From: Gelidibacter gilvus
GTDB lineage: Bacteria > Bacteroidota > Bacteroidia > Flavobacteriales > Flavobacteriaceae
Reading direction: 5' to 3'
DNA: 64,000 nt
Assembly (NCBI RefSeq): GCF_004115975.1
Contig: NZ_SDDZ01000001.1
Span: 248,001 to 312,000, forward strand
Shown piece after piece: positions 54,446 to 58,550 of this stretch. Position numbers and translations under genes: made by a program. The stretch's first letter is position 1. Each line of letters begins with the position of its first letter. The notes beneath the pieces were generated by a model, which ran no database searches, was not told where the DNA came from, and worked only from the letters and a program-made list of their open reading frames with translations.

Positions 54446-57025
54446 ATGTCAAAGCAACCAAAATTAACGCGTTTTAATCAAAGCGTCTTATCAAAATATC
54501 AAATCTATAATGGTATTTTCATGACCTTGCCATTTGATGCCGTCACAAAAACCGGTGTTTTATTGCCATTGTTTCATGAGACCTGCCGTAAAGGCTTTAG
54601 TGATGGTATGGATCCTACCTCTATAGTCAATTCATTTTTTGAAAAATACCAAGCCCGACGCAGTCCAGAAAGCCAAATCAACTTACTGTTTCGTTTTATC
54701 CAATATATTGAACGTCAAGTCGTATTGTTTGACGCCATAGAAGATGCGGCATTCCCGATAGTCAATAATATGGATGGGATTGGTACTTTAAGAAGTTTGA
54801 AAGAAAGCGTCTCTGCAGAAAACAAAATGGAATTGCTCCGAAAATATCTGAAGGAATTTAAGGTCCGTATTGTATTGACCGCTCACCCTACGCAATTCTA
54901 CCCAGGCTCCGTTTTAGGTATTATTACGGATCTGACCGAAGCCATTAAGGAAAACGATTTGCTTCGCATCAACGATTTGCTTGCACAATTAGGGAAAACA
55001 CCATTTTTTAAACATGAAAAACCAACTCCTTATGATGAAGCCGTCAGCTTAATCTGGTATTTGGAAAATGTTTTTTATAAATCCTTTGGGGACATTTTCG
55101 ACTATATCCAACAGAATATATTTGATGGAAATAAAATTGACAATAACATCATCAATATTGGTTTCTGGCCAGGCGGAGATCGCGATGGAAATCCCTTTGT
55201 GACGCCTGAAATCACTCTCAAAGTGGCAGAGCGTTTAAAAGAAACCATAATTAAAAACTATTATCGCGACGTTAGAAGACTGAAAAGAAAACTCACTTTT
55301 AGAGGTACTGAAGAGCGTATGTCGCTCCTAGAAAATGAACTGTATGAATTGATGATTGGCAATCCTTCTGAATTGACCTTAGACGATTTAAAAACGGAAT
55401 TAAATTCGATAAAAGACATAATCATCCAAAAACACCAATCGCTGTATGTTTCTGAAATCAACAGTTTACTCAATAAAATCCATCTTTTCGGATTTCATTT
55501 TTCAACGTTGGATATCCGACAGGACAGCCGTGCGCACGAAAAAGTGTTTATCGATTTAGTGAAAACCTTATTAAAAAGTGGCAGTACCATTTTTCCGAAA
55601 AATTATTTTGAACTTTCACCATCAGAACAAGTGCAAGTACTCTCAAAAGTTGAGGGCAAAATTGATTTCTCCTTGATAAAAGATGACGAAACGCTAAAAA
55701 CCTTGCAAATCATTGAAGCTATTAAAACCATTCAGGAAAAAAATGGCGAACAGGCTTGCAACAGATATATCATCAGTAACAACCAAAGCACGCTGCATGT
55801 CATGCATTTGTTTGCGATGTTAAAACTCGTAGCGTTTCAAGATCAAATGACCGTTGATATTGGTCCTCTTTTTGAAACCATCACCGATTTGGAAAACGCT
55901 CATTTGGTCATGGAGGAGCTGTATACAAATCCTGCATACAGTGCACATCTAAAATCAAGAAACAACAAACAGACCATCATGCTTGGGTTTAGTGATGGTA
56001 CCAAAGATGGTGGCTATTTGATGGCCAATTGGGCCATTTATAAAGCGAAAGAGCGCCTCACCGAAATTTCACGTAAGTATGAAGTGACCGTTATTTTCTT
56101 TGATGGCCGTGGTGGTCCTCCCGCACGTGGTGGTGGAAAAACACATAATTTCTATGCGTCATTAGGACCAACTATTGAAGACAAAGAAGTACAATTGACC
56201 ATTCAAGGGCAGACCATTAGTTCTAATTTTGGCACTTTAGATTCGTCACAGTATAATTTGGAGCAGTTGATCAGTTCTGGTATTTATAATAGCTTGATTG
56301 ATAGCGATTTACGTATGTTACCAGAAAACAGGGAAGTCATGGGCAATCTGGCCACTTTGAGTTATAAAGCTTACGCCGATTTTAAGGCACATCCAAAATT
56401 CATTTCTTATTTAGAGAATATGAGTACCTTAAAATACTATTCCAAAACCAATATTGGAAGTAGGCCAACAAAACGTGGCAAATCTGAAGGACTTGTTTTT
56501 GAAGATTTAAGGGCCATTCCGTTTGTTGGATCTTGGAGCCAACTTAAACAAAACGTCCCAGGATTCTTTGGGGTAGGAACAGCTTTAAAATATTATGAAG
56601 ACGCCAATGAATTTGAAAAAGTACAGCATCTGTTTAAAACATCAAGTTTCTTCAAAACATTGATTGAAAACAGCATGATGTCCTTGTCAAAATCCTTCTT
56701 TGATCTGACCAAATACATGTCTGACGATCCTGAATATGGTCCATTTTGGAACATCATTCATGATGAGTACGTCATCACAAAACGTTTGATCCTTAAACTG
56801 ACAGGCTTTACTGAATTGATGCAGGAAGAGCCTTCCGGTAAAGCATCCATTAGCATAAGGGAATCTATTGTGTTACCGCTTTTAACCATTCAGCAATTCG
56901 CCTTAAAGAAAATTCAGGAATTGGAGAAGGAATCGCCACGGGATGAAGCGCAAATCAAAGTTTACGAAAAAATCGTGATGCGTTCTTTGTTTGGAAATAT
57001 TAATGCGAGCAGGAATTCGGCCTAA
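54446..57025 (+). CDS. ppc: Phosphoenolpyruvate carboxylase
   Basis: An 859-residue enzyme that forms oxaloacetate from PEP and bicarbonate, replenishing the TCA cycle. The catalytic His is in VLTAHPTQF (about 146). Other motifs are FWPGGDRDGNPFVTPE near 230, RGGPPARGGGKTH near 556 (catalytic loop), TNIGSRPTKRG near 671, and FVGSWSQLKQNVPGFFG near 691. The C-terminus ends NASRNSA; the family usually ends RNTG, and the change is small. Length is typical for Bacteroidota. It is monocistronic, followed by a 600-bp regulatory spacer. Confidence 0.95.
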   Translation: MSKQPKLTRFNQSVLSKYQIYNGIFMTLPFDAVTKTGVLLPLFHETCRKGFSDGMDPTSIVNSFFEKYQARRSPESQINLLFRFIQYIERQVVLFDAIEDAAFPIVNNMDGIGTLRSLKESVSAENKMELLRKYLKEFKVRIVLTAHPTQFYPGSVLGIITDLTEAIKENDLLRINDLLAQLGKTPFFKHEKPTPYDEAVSLIWYLENVFYKSFGDIFDYIQQNIFDGNKIDNNIINIGFWPGGDRDGNPFVTPEITLKVAERLKETIIKNYYRDVRRLKRKLTFRGTEERMSLLENELYELMIGNPSELTLDDLKTELNSIKDIIIQKHQSLYVSEINSLLNKIHLFGFHFSTLDIRQDSRAHEKVFIDLVKTLLKSGSTIFPKNYFELSPSEQVQVLSKVEGKIDFSLIKDDETLKTLQIIEAIKTIQEKNGEQACNRYIISNNQSTLHVMHLFAMLKLVAFQDQMTVDIGPLFETITDLENAHLVMEELYTNPAYSAHLKSRNNKQTIMLGFSDGTKDGGYLMANWAIYKAKERLTEISRKYEVTVIFFDGRGGPPARGGGKTHNFYASLGPTIEDKEVQLTIQGQTISSNFGTLDSSQYNLEQLISSGIYNSLIDSDLRMLPENREVMGNLATLSYKAYADFKAHPKFISYLENMSTLKYYSKTNIGSRPTKRGKSEGLVFEDLRAIPFVGSWSQLKQNVPGFFGVGTALKYYEDANEFEKVQHLFKTSSFFKTLIENSMMSLSKSFFDLTKYMSDDPEYGPFWNIIHDEYVITKRLILKLTGFTELMQEEPSGKASISIRESIVLPLLTIQQFALKKIQELEKESPRDEAQIKVYEKIVMRSLFGNINASRNSA

Positions 57026-57094
57026 AGATTTGAGTTCATACTTCGAAATTATTTCTAAAGAGAGGTAATCAGGCAATTTTAACAGCAAAGGTTT

Positions 57095-57129
57095 GTAAAT
57101 TATTTACAATCAAGTCTTTGTTCTTGATT
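57095..57129. other. Two adjoining palindromes downstream of ppc
   Basis: GTAAATTATTTAC at 57095-57107 is a perfect 13-nt palindrome. It abuts AATCAAG-8 nt-CTTGATT at 57108-57129. There is no T run after them, so they are not classic terminators; they may be binding sites or a ppc transcript end. Confidence 0.5.
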
Positions 57130-57248
57130 CTACAAGCGCAGCGGTCTTGATACTTTATAAGAAAACAATGAATATAAAAAACATATTTAAACATTCTTCG
57201 CGAAAATATTAGGTTTTGAAATAATAAATTTTGACTTTTGACGAATAA

Positions 57249-57311
57249 ATGAACAAACAAAACTTAAATATTATTTCTATTATTCGCGTTGTGATTATTT
57301 CACAACGATGA
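57249..57311 (+). CDS. Leader peptide 1 of the ilv operon attenuator
   Basis: A 20-residue reading frame with TGA stop. The core NLNIISIIRVVIIS contains six Ile (all ATT), two Val and one Leu, the products of the downstream pathway. It is followed by an intrinsic terminator 33 nt after the stop. A hairpin CGTTGTGA/TCACAACG (57287-57307) lies inside the coding sequence. The stop codon (57309-57311) lies within the 5' arm of the proposed antiterminator. No Shine-Dalgarno precedes it, which is normal here. It is too short for homology; the evidence is composition and position. Confidence 0.85.
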   Translation: MNKQNLNIISIIRVVIISQR

Positions 57312-57357
57312 GGAATGGTATCTAAAGTTTAAATATAAAACGTAAAGCCTTCCTCAT
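57308..57357 (+). promoter_or_regulatory. Antiterminator 1 of the ilv attenuator
   Basis: ATGAGGAA (57308-57315) pairs perfectly with TTCCTCAT (57350-57357); with a bulged T, the next GG pairs with CC at 57348-57349. This pairing removes the 5' arm of terminator 1. A ribosome that finishes leader 1 would cover the first arm and let the terminator form. A ribosome stalled on early Ile codons would leave it free. Confidence 0.75.
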
Positions 57358-57375
57358 AATTGGAAGGCTTTTTTT
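57344..57375 (+). terminator. Attenuator terminator 1
   Basis: The stem AAAGCCTTCC/GGAAGGCTTT of 10 bp has an 8-nt loop and ends in a run of seven T (57369-57375). It lies after leader peptide 1 and more than 260 bp before ilvE. Confidence 0.93.
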
Positions 57376-57381
57376 GTACCT

Positions 57382-57432
57382 ATGAATCAGATTATTGTCA
57401 TTATTAGCGTGATTATTATTAGCTCGAGTTAG
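57382..57432 (+). CDS. Leader peptide 2 of the ilv operon attenuator
   Basis: A 16-residue reading frame, MNQIIVIISVIIISSS, with TAG stop. Seven Ile (all ATT) and two Val make up more than half of it. Its ATG lies only 7 nt after the T run of terminator 1, so it is transcribed only when terminator 1 is passed. The stop codon abuts the 5' arm of the second antiterminator. A weaker hairpin ATTAGC-TCGA-GTTAGT (57418-57433) may act as the protector stem. Confidence 0.85.
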   Translation: MNQIIVIISVIIISSS

Positions 57433-57470
57433 TTGATACAGTATGCTATTTCCATAAAAGCCTGTATCAA
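57433..57470 (+). promoter_or_regulatory. Antiterminator 2 of the ilv attenuator
   Basis: TTGATACAG (57433-57441) is the exact reverse complement of CTGTATCAA (57462-57470), which is most of the 5' arm of terminator 2. The pairing can extend with wobble pairs into the TAG stop of leader 2. It is mutually exclusive with terminator 2. Confidence 0.78.
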
Positions 57471-57489
57471 TTGAGATACAGGCTTTTTT
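57456..57489 (+). terminator. Attenuator terminator 2
   Basis: GCCTGTATC/GATACAGGC is a perfect 9-bp stem, extended to 13 bp by A/T pairs, with a 6-nt loop and six T (57484-57489). It lies 23 nt after leader 2. Confidence 0.93.
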
Positions 57490-57644
57490 AATTGAAAAGT
57501 TTAGCATATTGAACGTCATAAATAAACCAACCTAAAAAATTGATTATCAATATTTTTGGTGTCAAAGATAAACGCTGAGTTTAGTCTTAAATCGTAAATT
57601 CAAAACCTTGAAACAATCTTAATATTGTAATTTTAAAACTTTAA

Positions 57645-58550
57645 ATGATTATGAACGCGTATTCCAACAACCAAACTATTATTTACCACAACGGTGAATT
57701 TTTAAAACCTGAAGCCGCCACAGGTAGTTTATACAGCCAAACTTTGCATTATGGCAATGGCGTTTTTGAAGGGATTAGATCTTACGAAACTCCTAAAGGC
57801 GCCAAAATTTTCAAAGCTAAAGAACACTACAAACGATTAAAATACGGCGCTGAAGTCATGGGGATTCCTTTCAACTATACTGTTGAAGAGCTTACAGCAA
57901 TCACCTACGATCTTTTAAAAAGAAACAATCTCGAAGATGCCTATATCCGCCCTTTAATTACTACCGGCGCTAATATGGGCTTATATACTTCAAAGGAATC
58001 TATCTTGACCATGCAGTGTTGGGAATGGGGGAAATTAATGGGCGACAAATTATTGCGTGTGATGACGTCCTCTTTTGAACGTCCAAATCCAAAATCCTGT
58101 TTTGTTGAAGCAAAAGTAACCGGGCATTATATTAACTCCATTTTATCCACCAACGAAGCTAAAGACGCAGGTTTTGATGAAGCCTTGTTATTGGATATGC
58201 ATGGCAATGTCGCAGAATGTTCAGGAGCAAACATCTTTATGGAAAAAAACGGAAAGTTATATACACCTAAAAAAGGGAGTATCATGGCAGGAATTACACG
58301 TTCTACCATCTTAGAAATTTGCCAAGAAGAAGGTATTCCAGTTGAAGAAAAGCATTTCAAATTGGACGAGTTGAAACAAGCAGACAGTTCATTTTTTACG
58401 GGAACGGCAGCAGAAGTTGTTGGACTCAAATCTTTAGATGAGTATGAGTTTCCATTACGATGGACAGATTCATTAGGATTTAAATTAATGCAGTTGTACC
58501 AACAAGAAGTTTTAGGACAACGAAAAAATAAATTTTCAAAAGCACTATGA
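57645..58550 (+). CDS. ilvE: Branched-chain amino acid aminotransferase
   Basis: A 301-residue fold-type IV PLP aminotransferase that makes Ile, Leu and Val from their 2-oxo acids. [18 protein letters not shown] near 31-48 is the N-terminal signature. The PLP lysine is in [13 protein letters not shown] near 158. [18 protein letters not shown] near 187 and [13 protein letters not shown] near 212 follow. ATG at 57651 is an alternative start. It is the first gene of the ilv operon, under the tandem attenuators, and overlaps ilvD by 4 bp (ATGA). Confidence 0.95.

Follow-up and report, generated by a model that had tools for sequence, protein, structure and literature searches.

The ilvGMEDA and ilvBN operons of enterobacteria are controlled by leader-peptide attenuators, each built as a single unit. 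Both attenuators are named in the parts of PMC1183508 available to us. In the family studied here, amino acid operons of Flavobacterium psychrophilum were reported, in work with an experimental transcript map, to show 'strong clues' of leader-peptide attenuation (PMC9723704). This case concerns the same family and the same class of operon, but attenuation is reported there as clues, and the text examined describes no tandem unit. Two leader frames on one RNA, each acting on elongation, are described for Salmonella mgtCBR, which its authors called a singular example in 2012 (PMC3641672, consulted in part). The locus described here resembles ilvGMEDA and ilvBN in its branched-chain-codon leader, in the presence of strands 1 to 4, in a terminator before the first gene and in the pathway served. 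It differs from them in having two units where they have one, and in a first ATG placed about 4 nt after the position at which the RNA is predicted to begin.

The window (the whole 64,000-nucleotide stretch of DNA analysed) holds two complete attenuation units in series before ilvE, all features below being on the forward strand. They occupy the 619-nt spacer between a ppc-like gene ending at 57025 (sole NCBIfam match ppc, with a score under that model's cut-off) and ilvE (57645-58550), the first gene of ilvE-ilvD-ilvB-ilvN-ilvC(-ilvA). The order ilvE-ilvD-ilvB-ilvN-ilvC is seen directly, ilvA follows just past the window end, and ilvN scores above the cut-off of TIGR00119 and below that of NF008864. 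The nearest named records to the IlvD of the window come from Winogradskyella psychrotolerans (93% identity) and Lacinutrix venerupis (92%), which points to the Flavobacteriaceae.

The first unit, A, opens with leader peptide 1 (MNKQNLNIISIIRVVIISQR, 57249-57311, stop TGA), recognized by its sequence and by homologues in relatives. Strand 1 (ATATTATTTC, 57268-57277) pairs in the alignment with GGAATGGTAT of strand 2, and strand 2 itself (ATGAGGAATGG) spans 57308-57318. Between them lies a leader hairpin (CGTTGTGATTATTTCACAACG, 57287-57307) with changes on both sides of its stem, a candidate RNA polymerase pause hairpin. The antiterminator joins ATGAGGAA in strand 2 to TTCCTCAT at 57350-57357, and the terminator with its T run (strands 3 and 4, 57344-57375) has a stem at 57344-57371 of the form CCTTCC..GGAAGG (type A). 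The second unit, B, repeats this plan. Leader peptide 2 (MNQIIVIISVIIISSS, 57382-57432, stop TAG), likewise recognized by sequence and homologues, is followed by strand 2 (TTAGTTGATACAG, 57429-57441), which starts at the stop codon; strand 1 (TATTAGCT, 57417-57424) pairs with AGTTGATA at 57431-57438 according to short-piece folding and covariation. All 13 positions of strand 2 pair with CTGTATCAATTGA at 57462-57474, and the terminator with its T run (strands 3 and 4, 57456-57489) has a stem at 57456-57487 of the form CTGTATC..GATACAG (type B). In the window, the antiterminator thus has 8 pairs in unit A and 13 in unit B.

The coordinates that the first-pass annotation gave for both leaders and both terminators agree with the sequence and the unit scan, and the ATG of leader 2 does start 7 nt past the T run of terminator 1, which ends at 57375. 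Its description of the leaders as rich in Ile and Val, with Leu in the first only, is borne out by the codon counts: 6 Ile, 2 Val and 1 Leu in leader 1, and 7 Ile and 2 Val in leader 2. Both stop codons (57309-57311 and 57430-57432) fall within strand 2 of their unit, so that a ribosome at the stop would cover strand 2, taking the footprint size from general knowledge.

Upstream of leader 1 is a candidate promoter, P1 (57209-57240), composed of TTAGG at 57209-57213 (about -33) and GACTTTTG at 57233-57240. The flavobacterial -7 box is given as TAnnTTTG, at -12 to -5, in the text seen of PMC9723704, and GACTTTTG fits five of its six fixed letters; a sigma-70-type promoter scan of 56900-57800 gave zero matches beyond chance. 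This places the predicted RNA start near 57245, about 4 nt 5' of the leader 1 ATG, and leader 1 probably begins almost at the 5' end of the RNA. By eye, similar boxes precede leaders in relatives, and in several genomes with a B unit only, TAATATTG or a like sequence ends 3-5 nt 5' of the leader ATG, so that the leader would start at or beside the first base. Leaderless mRNAs make up only 5.5% in F. psychrophilum, and the group is described as lacking Shine-Dalgarno sequences (both PMC9723704, consulted in part).

Both units are preserved among close relatives. Seven of the eight other same-genus genomes have an ilvE orthologue, the exception being G002, where the match is distant. Each of the seven carries both units, with 10 to 125 nt between stem 1 and leader 2 across these genomes. 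By eye, the upstream gene changes among relatives while both units are retained. Family-wide, two unit types recur, defined by the type A and type B terminators. A pattern census of 117 genomes gave 15 with both, 15 with A only, 19 with B only and 68 with neither. Covariance models, built from 26 A units and 34 B units, have their only strong sense-strand match in the own genome at this locus: model R2 returned 5e-24 here and 0.01 at its next match, and model R1 returned 3e-18 here and 4e-5 at its next match, which is this same site read in antisense. Among the matches listed, A followed by B was found in 19 of 199 family genomes (both E < 1e-6), and A precedes B in all 19 that carry the pair; this is a hand tally of listings that reach E of about 1e-3 and 5e-3, of which only matches below 1e-6 were used.

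Alignment of the census units (A1, 26 of 30 A units, with G200, G037, G031 and G151 omitted as poorly alignable; A2, 33 of 34 B units plus G136, with G103 omitted for its differing strand 3) shows that the leader frames and stems are conserved and that compensatory changes occur in both units, as the comparison of relatives proposed in the first-pass annotation had called for. In each unit a short frame with Ile/Val codons is kept in relatives, an intrinsic terminator lies between leader and first gene, and the 2:3 antiterminator and the 3:4 terminator are mutually exclusive. In unit B, the 1:2 stem, which overlaps the control codons, varies between genomes, with AACUC:GAGUU and GUCCC:GGGAU both occurring; across 34 sequences 91.9% of cells are paired and 36 cells are changed on both sides, a level of covariation reached by 0 of 500 shuffles. 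The 2:3 antiterminator is paired in 237 of 238 cells and unpaired in one, with 19 departing cells that still pair, as G-U wobbles, through changes in strand 2. The 3:4 terminator is 99.2% paired with 15 both-side cells (0/500 shuffles).

For unit A, covariation exceeding all 500 shuffles was found in the leader hairpin (20 both-side-changed cells) and in the 3:4 terminator (3 such cells). Its 1:2 stem is paired in 86.7% of cells, against 39-64% when the strands are slid, with covariation no greater than in shuffles among the 26 sequences. The 2:3 pairing holds in 145 of 156 cells (92.9%), although a one-column slide still pairs 76%, and covariation is again no greater than in shuffles in this alignment, where strand 3 is invariant. 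Each unit appears to have the features of a classical leader-peptide attenuator that sequence can show, save for the 1:2 stem of unit A, where pairing comes without covariation. The terminator stem letters are unchanged across most of the family (CCTTCC in 26/26 and CTGTATC in 34/34 aligned units), a constancy of the stems at 57344-57371 and 57456-57487 that would seem to exceed what pairing alone needs; the patterns used in collection asked for nearly those letters, and the invariance of strand 3 therefore stems partly from the selection of sequences. By eye, variants do occur. In unit A of a Tenacibaculum locus (L155), strands 2, 3 and 4 are jointly altered to GGAAGC/GCTTCC/GGAAGC, locus L178 has the strand pair GGAATGG/CCATTCC with a matching strand 4, and unit B of G103 has a compensated terminator (CTATATC with GATATAG) whose new strand 3 is poorly fitted by strand 2.

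Chance controls likewise set the two units apart from background. The fold of the whole unit A half has a z of -6.7 and that of the unit B half -5.6, with 0 of 200 shuffles as stable in either case. The pre-terminator part is also unusually stable in unit A (z -4.1, 0/200), but that of unit B has no extra stability relative to shuffles (z -0.9, 35/200). Strand 1 of unit A pairs differently when its short piece is folded alone, and the strand 1 pairing of unit B is seen in a short-piece fold but is replaced by another in a longer one. A simple terminator scan of 56900-57800 gives terminator 1 only; terminator 2 comes from folding and the unit scan. An extra helix around terminator 2 (TATGCTA/TAGCATA) was dropped, as by eye it is not kept in G001 and G008. 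A named Rfam leader family was also rejected for the region, with zero matches at the curated score: a scan of 56900-57800 for a T-box or any other family gave 18 matches at E of 5 or less, none of which reached the gathering score, the best being Phe_leader at 30.9 of 55 bits.

In the unit scan, a unit was defined as a frame starting with ATG or GTG, 10-35 codons long, that has six or more I, L or V in nine residues and a terminator-like hairpin 8-110 nt past the stop. It was applied to 133 family regions upstream of ilvD (or ilvE), comprising 127 of 154 ilvD-matching family genomes with at least 300 nt upstream and six same-genus genomes; G016, which has no upstream sequence, and G139 are outside this set. 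A unit was found in 66 regions and two in series in 20, compared with no single or tandem unit in 1,330 order-1 Markov sequences, and one unit in four and two in none of the same 133 regions read antisense. The count of 20 overlooks four tandem regions of the 133, namely G109, G128 and G225 (detected by census and covariance models) and G125 (by the models). On both strands of the 64-kb window, the scan returned the two units and one weak match in ilvB.

Tandem units are found beyond this genome. The unit scan of 80 named loci, most of them titled as Bacteroidota, found two units in eight and one in 41. An A-B pair is present in Gaetbulibacter (L153) and Lutibacter (L180), and Tenacibaculum L155 combines an A variant with B. 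The two units of an Aquimarina locus (L161) have very similar leaders, which suggests that this pair arose by duplication. By eye, the pairs in two Chryseobacterium loci (L187 and L197) and in a Cyclobacteriaceae MAG (L177) have stems unlike A and B, and L178, also among the tandem loci, is titled Ignavibacteriae. In G139 (L268, G139:C40:15151-15548), three Ile units stand in series before an ilvE-like frame, which in the assembly carries an internal stop codon; the last two units are nearly identical (MTTYTNSIIISIIIRSTE and MPTYTNSIIISIIIRSIE), with stems that differ from the family B stem. Given the pairs with other stems and the three-unit genome, the serial design probably arose more than once. 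When the 14 tandem rows are labelled on a FastTree tree of 110 IlvD proteins, the label requires 12 changes, and the serial state therefore seems to have been often gained and lost, with the label 'none' taking in loci where the unit scan may have failed. Serial same-amino-acid attenuation may even be a recurrent Bacteroidota design, with several origins because multiplied gates would keep leak low and make induction steep in operons controlled mainly by attenuation, a generalization that we offer tentatively and hold at somewhat less than an even chance.

The observed anatomy, conservation and recurrence of the units, together with covariation in part of their stems, are in our judgement very probably to be read as two ribosome-mediated transcription attenuators acting in series on one RNA. 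The RNA would begin near 57245 and leader 1 would be translated immediately. With ample charged tRNA-Ile and tRNA-Val, the ribosome would reach the stop codon and cover strand 2, and terminator 1 would form; a ribosome stalled on Ile/Val codons would instead cover strand 1, leaving strand 2 to pair with strand 3 and the polymerase to continue. Leader 2 would be made only after the first gate is passed, and a second ribosome would then repeat the test on a frame that reads mainly Ile and whose stop codon adjoins strand 2. Total read-through would equal that of one gate multiplied by that of the other; the leak in times of plenty would then be two small numbers multiplied together, and the relative sensitivity the sum of both. 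A sharper response or a lower leak from the series, as the first-pass annotation suggested, is at this stage an expectation from arithmetic. Translation, stalling, the order of events and the gain in sharpness are predicted.

Certain observations count against this serial-gate model. By the scan, 67 of the 133 family regions have no unit, and the device is therefore dispensable. In Streptomyces coelicolor, codon changes in an attenuator-like ilvB leader were without effect, according to the portion of PMC1262725 seen. The lack of covariation beyond shuffles in stems 1:2 and 2:3 of unit A, the ordinary stability of unit B before its terminator, the 12 changes on the IlvD tree and the collection of both alignments by terminator letters weigh on the same side. 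A promoter downstream of the gates, considered below, may also bypass them.

The codon content of the leaders leaves room for a refinement that is compatible with serial gating, namely that the units read different signals, A responding to Ile, Val and sometimes Leu and B mainly to Ile. The operon would then follow a logical AND, in which a shortage of Val alone could not open it. Leader 2 does lack Val codons in three of eight genus members (G001, G005 and G007), and among 22 tandem pairs Leu is missing from leader 2 in 14 and from leader 1 in five. However, leader 2 of the window itself has two Val codons, mean Val counts are similar in the two leaders (2.0 and 1.8), and the position at which a ribosome stalls outweighs the codon count. 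We regard this division of signals as possible but unlikely.

A second reading, also compatible with serial gating, places the main ilv promoter 3' of both gates and leaves the attenuators to tune a minor transcript. It would be served by a family-conserved element, C (57509-57583), with boxes TTGAACGTCATA at 57509-57520, TTGATTATCAA at 57540-57550 and TGAGTTTA at 57576-57583. Box 1 (TTGRAYATSRTA, one mismatch allowed) occurs in 90 of 133 family genomes compared with 55 of 2,660 single-letter shuffles, and the full set of three in 51 of the 133 genomes compared with 0 of 2,660 shuffles, the patterns having been chosen from the same sequences in which they were later counted. A palindrome in the element was considered as an RNA hairpin; by eye, its arms are matched in some genomes and unmatched in others. 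As a conserved element lies downstream of 57489, some ilv transcripts may begin in this region, which resembles a regulated second promoter whose transcripts would avoid both attenuators. Box 1 is about equally common in regions without units (42/67) and with them (48/66), and 83 of 133 family genomes, versus 195 of 2,660 shuffles, have a TAnnTT[TC]G box in the 100 nt before the gene. From terminator 2 to ilvE, the window contains a single TAnnTT[TC]G match, TATTTTTG (57551-57558), a candidate -7 box of the second promoter; TAATTTTA (57628-57635) is a second, weaker candidate. Within the genus, however, the box is found in the window only, none of the seven relatives having one in its last 155 nt, so that element C may mark a second promoter but draws weak support from this genus. 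Both units are, moreover, under selection, which calls for a transcript that matters to pass through them. A main promoter downstream of the gates therefore appears rather improbable to us.

That only one unit regulates, the other being a relic of duplication or a plain ppc terminator, draws some plausibility from the many relatives with a single type (15 A-only and 19 B-only in the census, beside 15 with both), from the lack of a separate ppc terminator in the simple scan of 56900-57800, and from the duplications suggested by Aquimarina L161 and G139. Such a relic would sit poorly with the retention of both units in 7/7 same-genus genomes with an ilvE orthologue, with compensatory changes in each unit type and, by eye, with the persistence of the units where the upstream gene differs, and we consider this reading quite improbable. 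The rnTrpL RNA of Sinorhizobium acts in trans. The peptide peTrpL does so too (PMC7298713, seen in part), but a comparable role for terminated leader RNAs or peptides here is very improbable. In its favour, strand 3 is identical in 26/26 and 34/34 aligned units, though the patterns favoured those letters; against it, the two pairing partners of strand 3 are sufficient reason for that identity, and strand 3 differs in L155, L178, G103 and G139.

Leaders for other amino acids were also encountered. In the own genome (L249), a single His leader (MTFIQSHHHHHHICTQAN) with hairpin and T run has its ATG 214 nt upstream of a hisG match (by eye). Asn-rich leaders (for example MKNNNNNNNFNNPKF) followed by a CCTTCC..GGAAGG-type terminator lie upstream of a gatA-like gene in L269 (about 208-318), L270, L271 and L274. 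Four of the five secondary family matches examined (G219, G043, G117 and G201) have such an Asn leader, and the fifth, G109, has a His leader before a hisG-like gene. The G219 gene matches TIGR00132 gatA best, at 437 bits against a cut-off of 481, and the other gatA-like genes were called by eye; the Asn leaders are candidates for an Asn-codon attenuator of tRNA amidotransferase. In L273 (about 369-506), a Trp leader (MYTTLNHTWWWNFSKQTS) with terminator is separated from trpE by a small gene, which we take to resemble GIY-YIG nucleases. Before the leu operon, the 5.3 kb examined showed no convincing leader frame. A box resembling [AT]G[GC]TAT occurs, by eye, a few nt past the leader stop in A, B, the L273 trp unit and the G139 units, whose stems differ, and is possibly a polymerase pause site.

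Returning to the serial-gate reading, the closest tandem case found, in the literature seen in part, is Salmonella mgtCBR. There the two frames respond to two different signals, ATP and proline, with additive effects and no intrinsic terminator (PMC3641672, in the sections consulted), whereas this locus has two intrinsic terminators, the same amino acids and a biosynthetic operon; by codon counts alone, both frames here are Ile-rich with some Val and so do not divide different signals between them in the manner of mgtCBR. The tandem riboswitches of Bacillus clausii metE also place two terminators in one leader, but the RNA itself senses the signals and no leader peptide is involved (PMC3641672, same sections). 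No tandem attenuator for Ile/Val or for other amino acid biosynthesis was found in the accessible parts of the open-licence literature. Each unit is thus of a known kind, and the doubled same-amino-acid version appears new within these sources. The parts seen of PMC1183508 hold that the sensitivity of attenuation rises with many control codons and a synchronised start, and serial gates would be another route to sensitivity. Genomes with one, two and three units exist, which allows a direct measurement of how the number of gates affects leak and steepness. The units also form a large collection of attenuators that can be aligned, from bacteria in which Shine-Dalgarno sequences are described as lacking.
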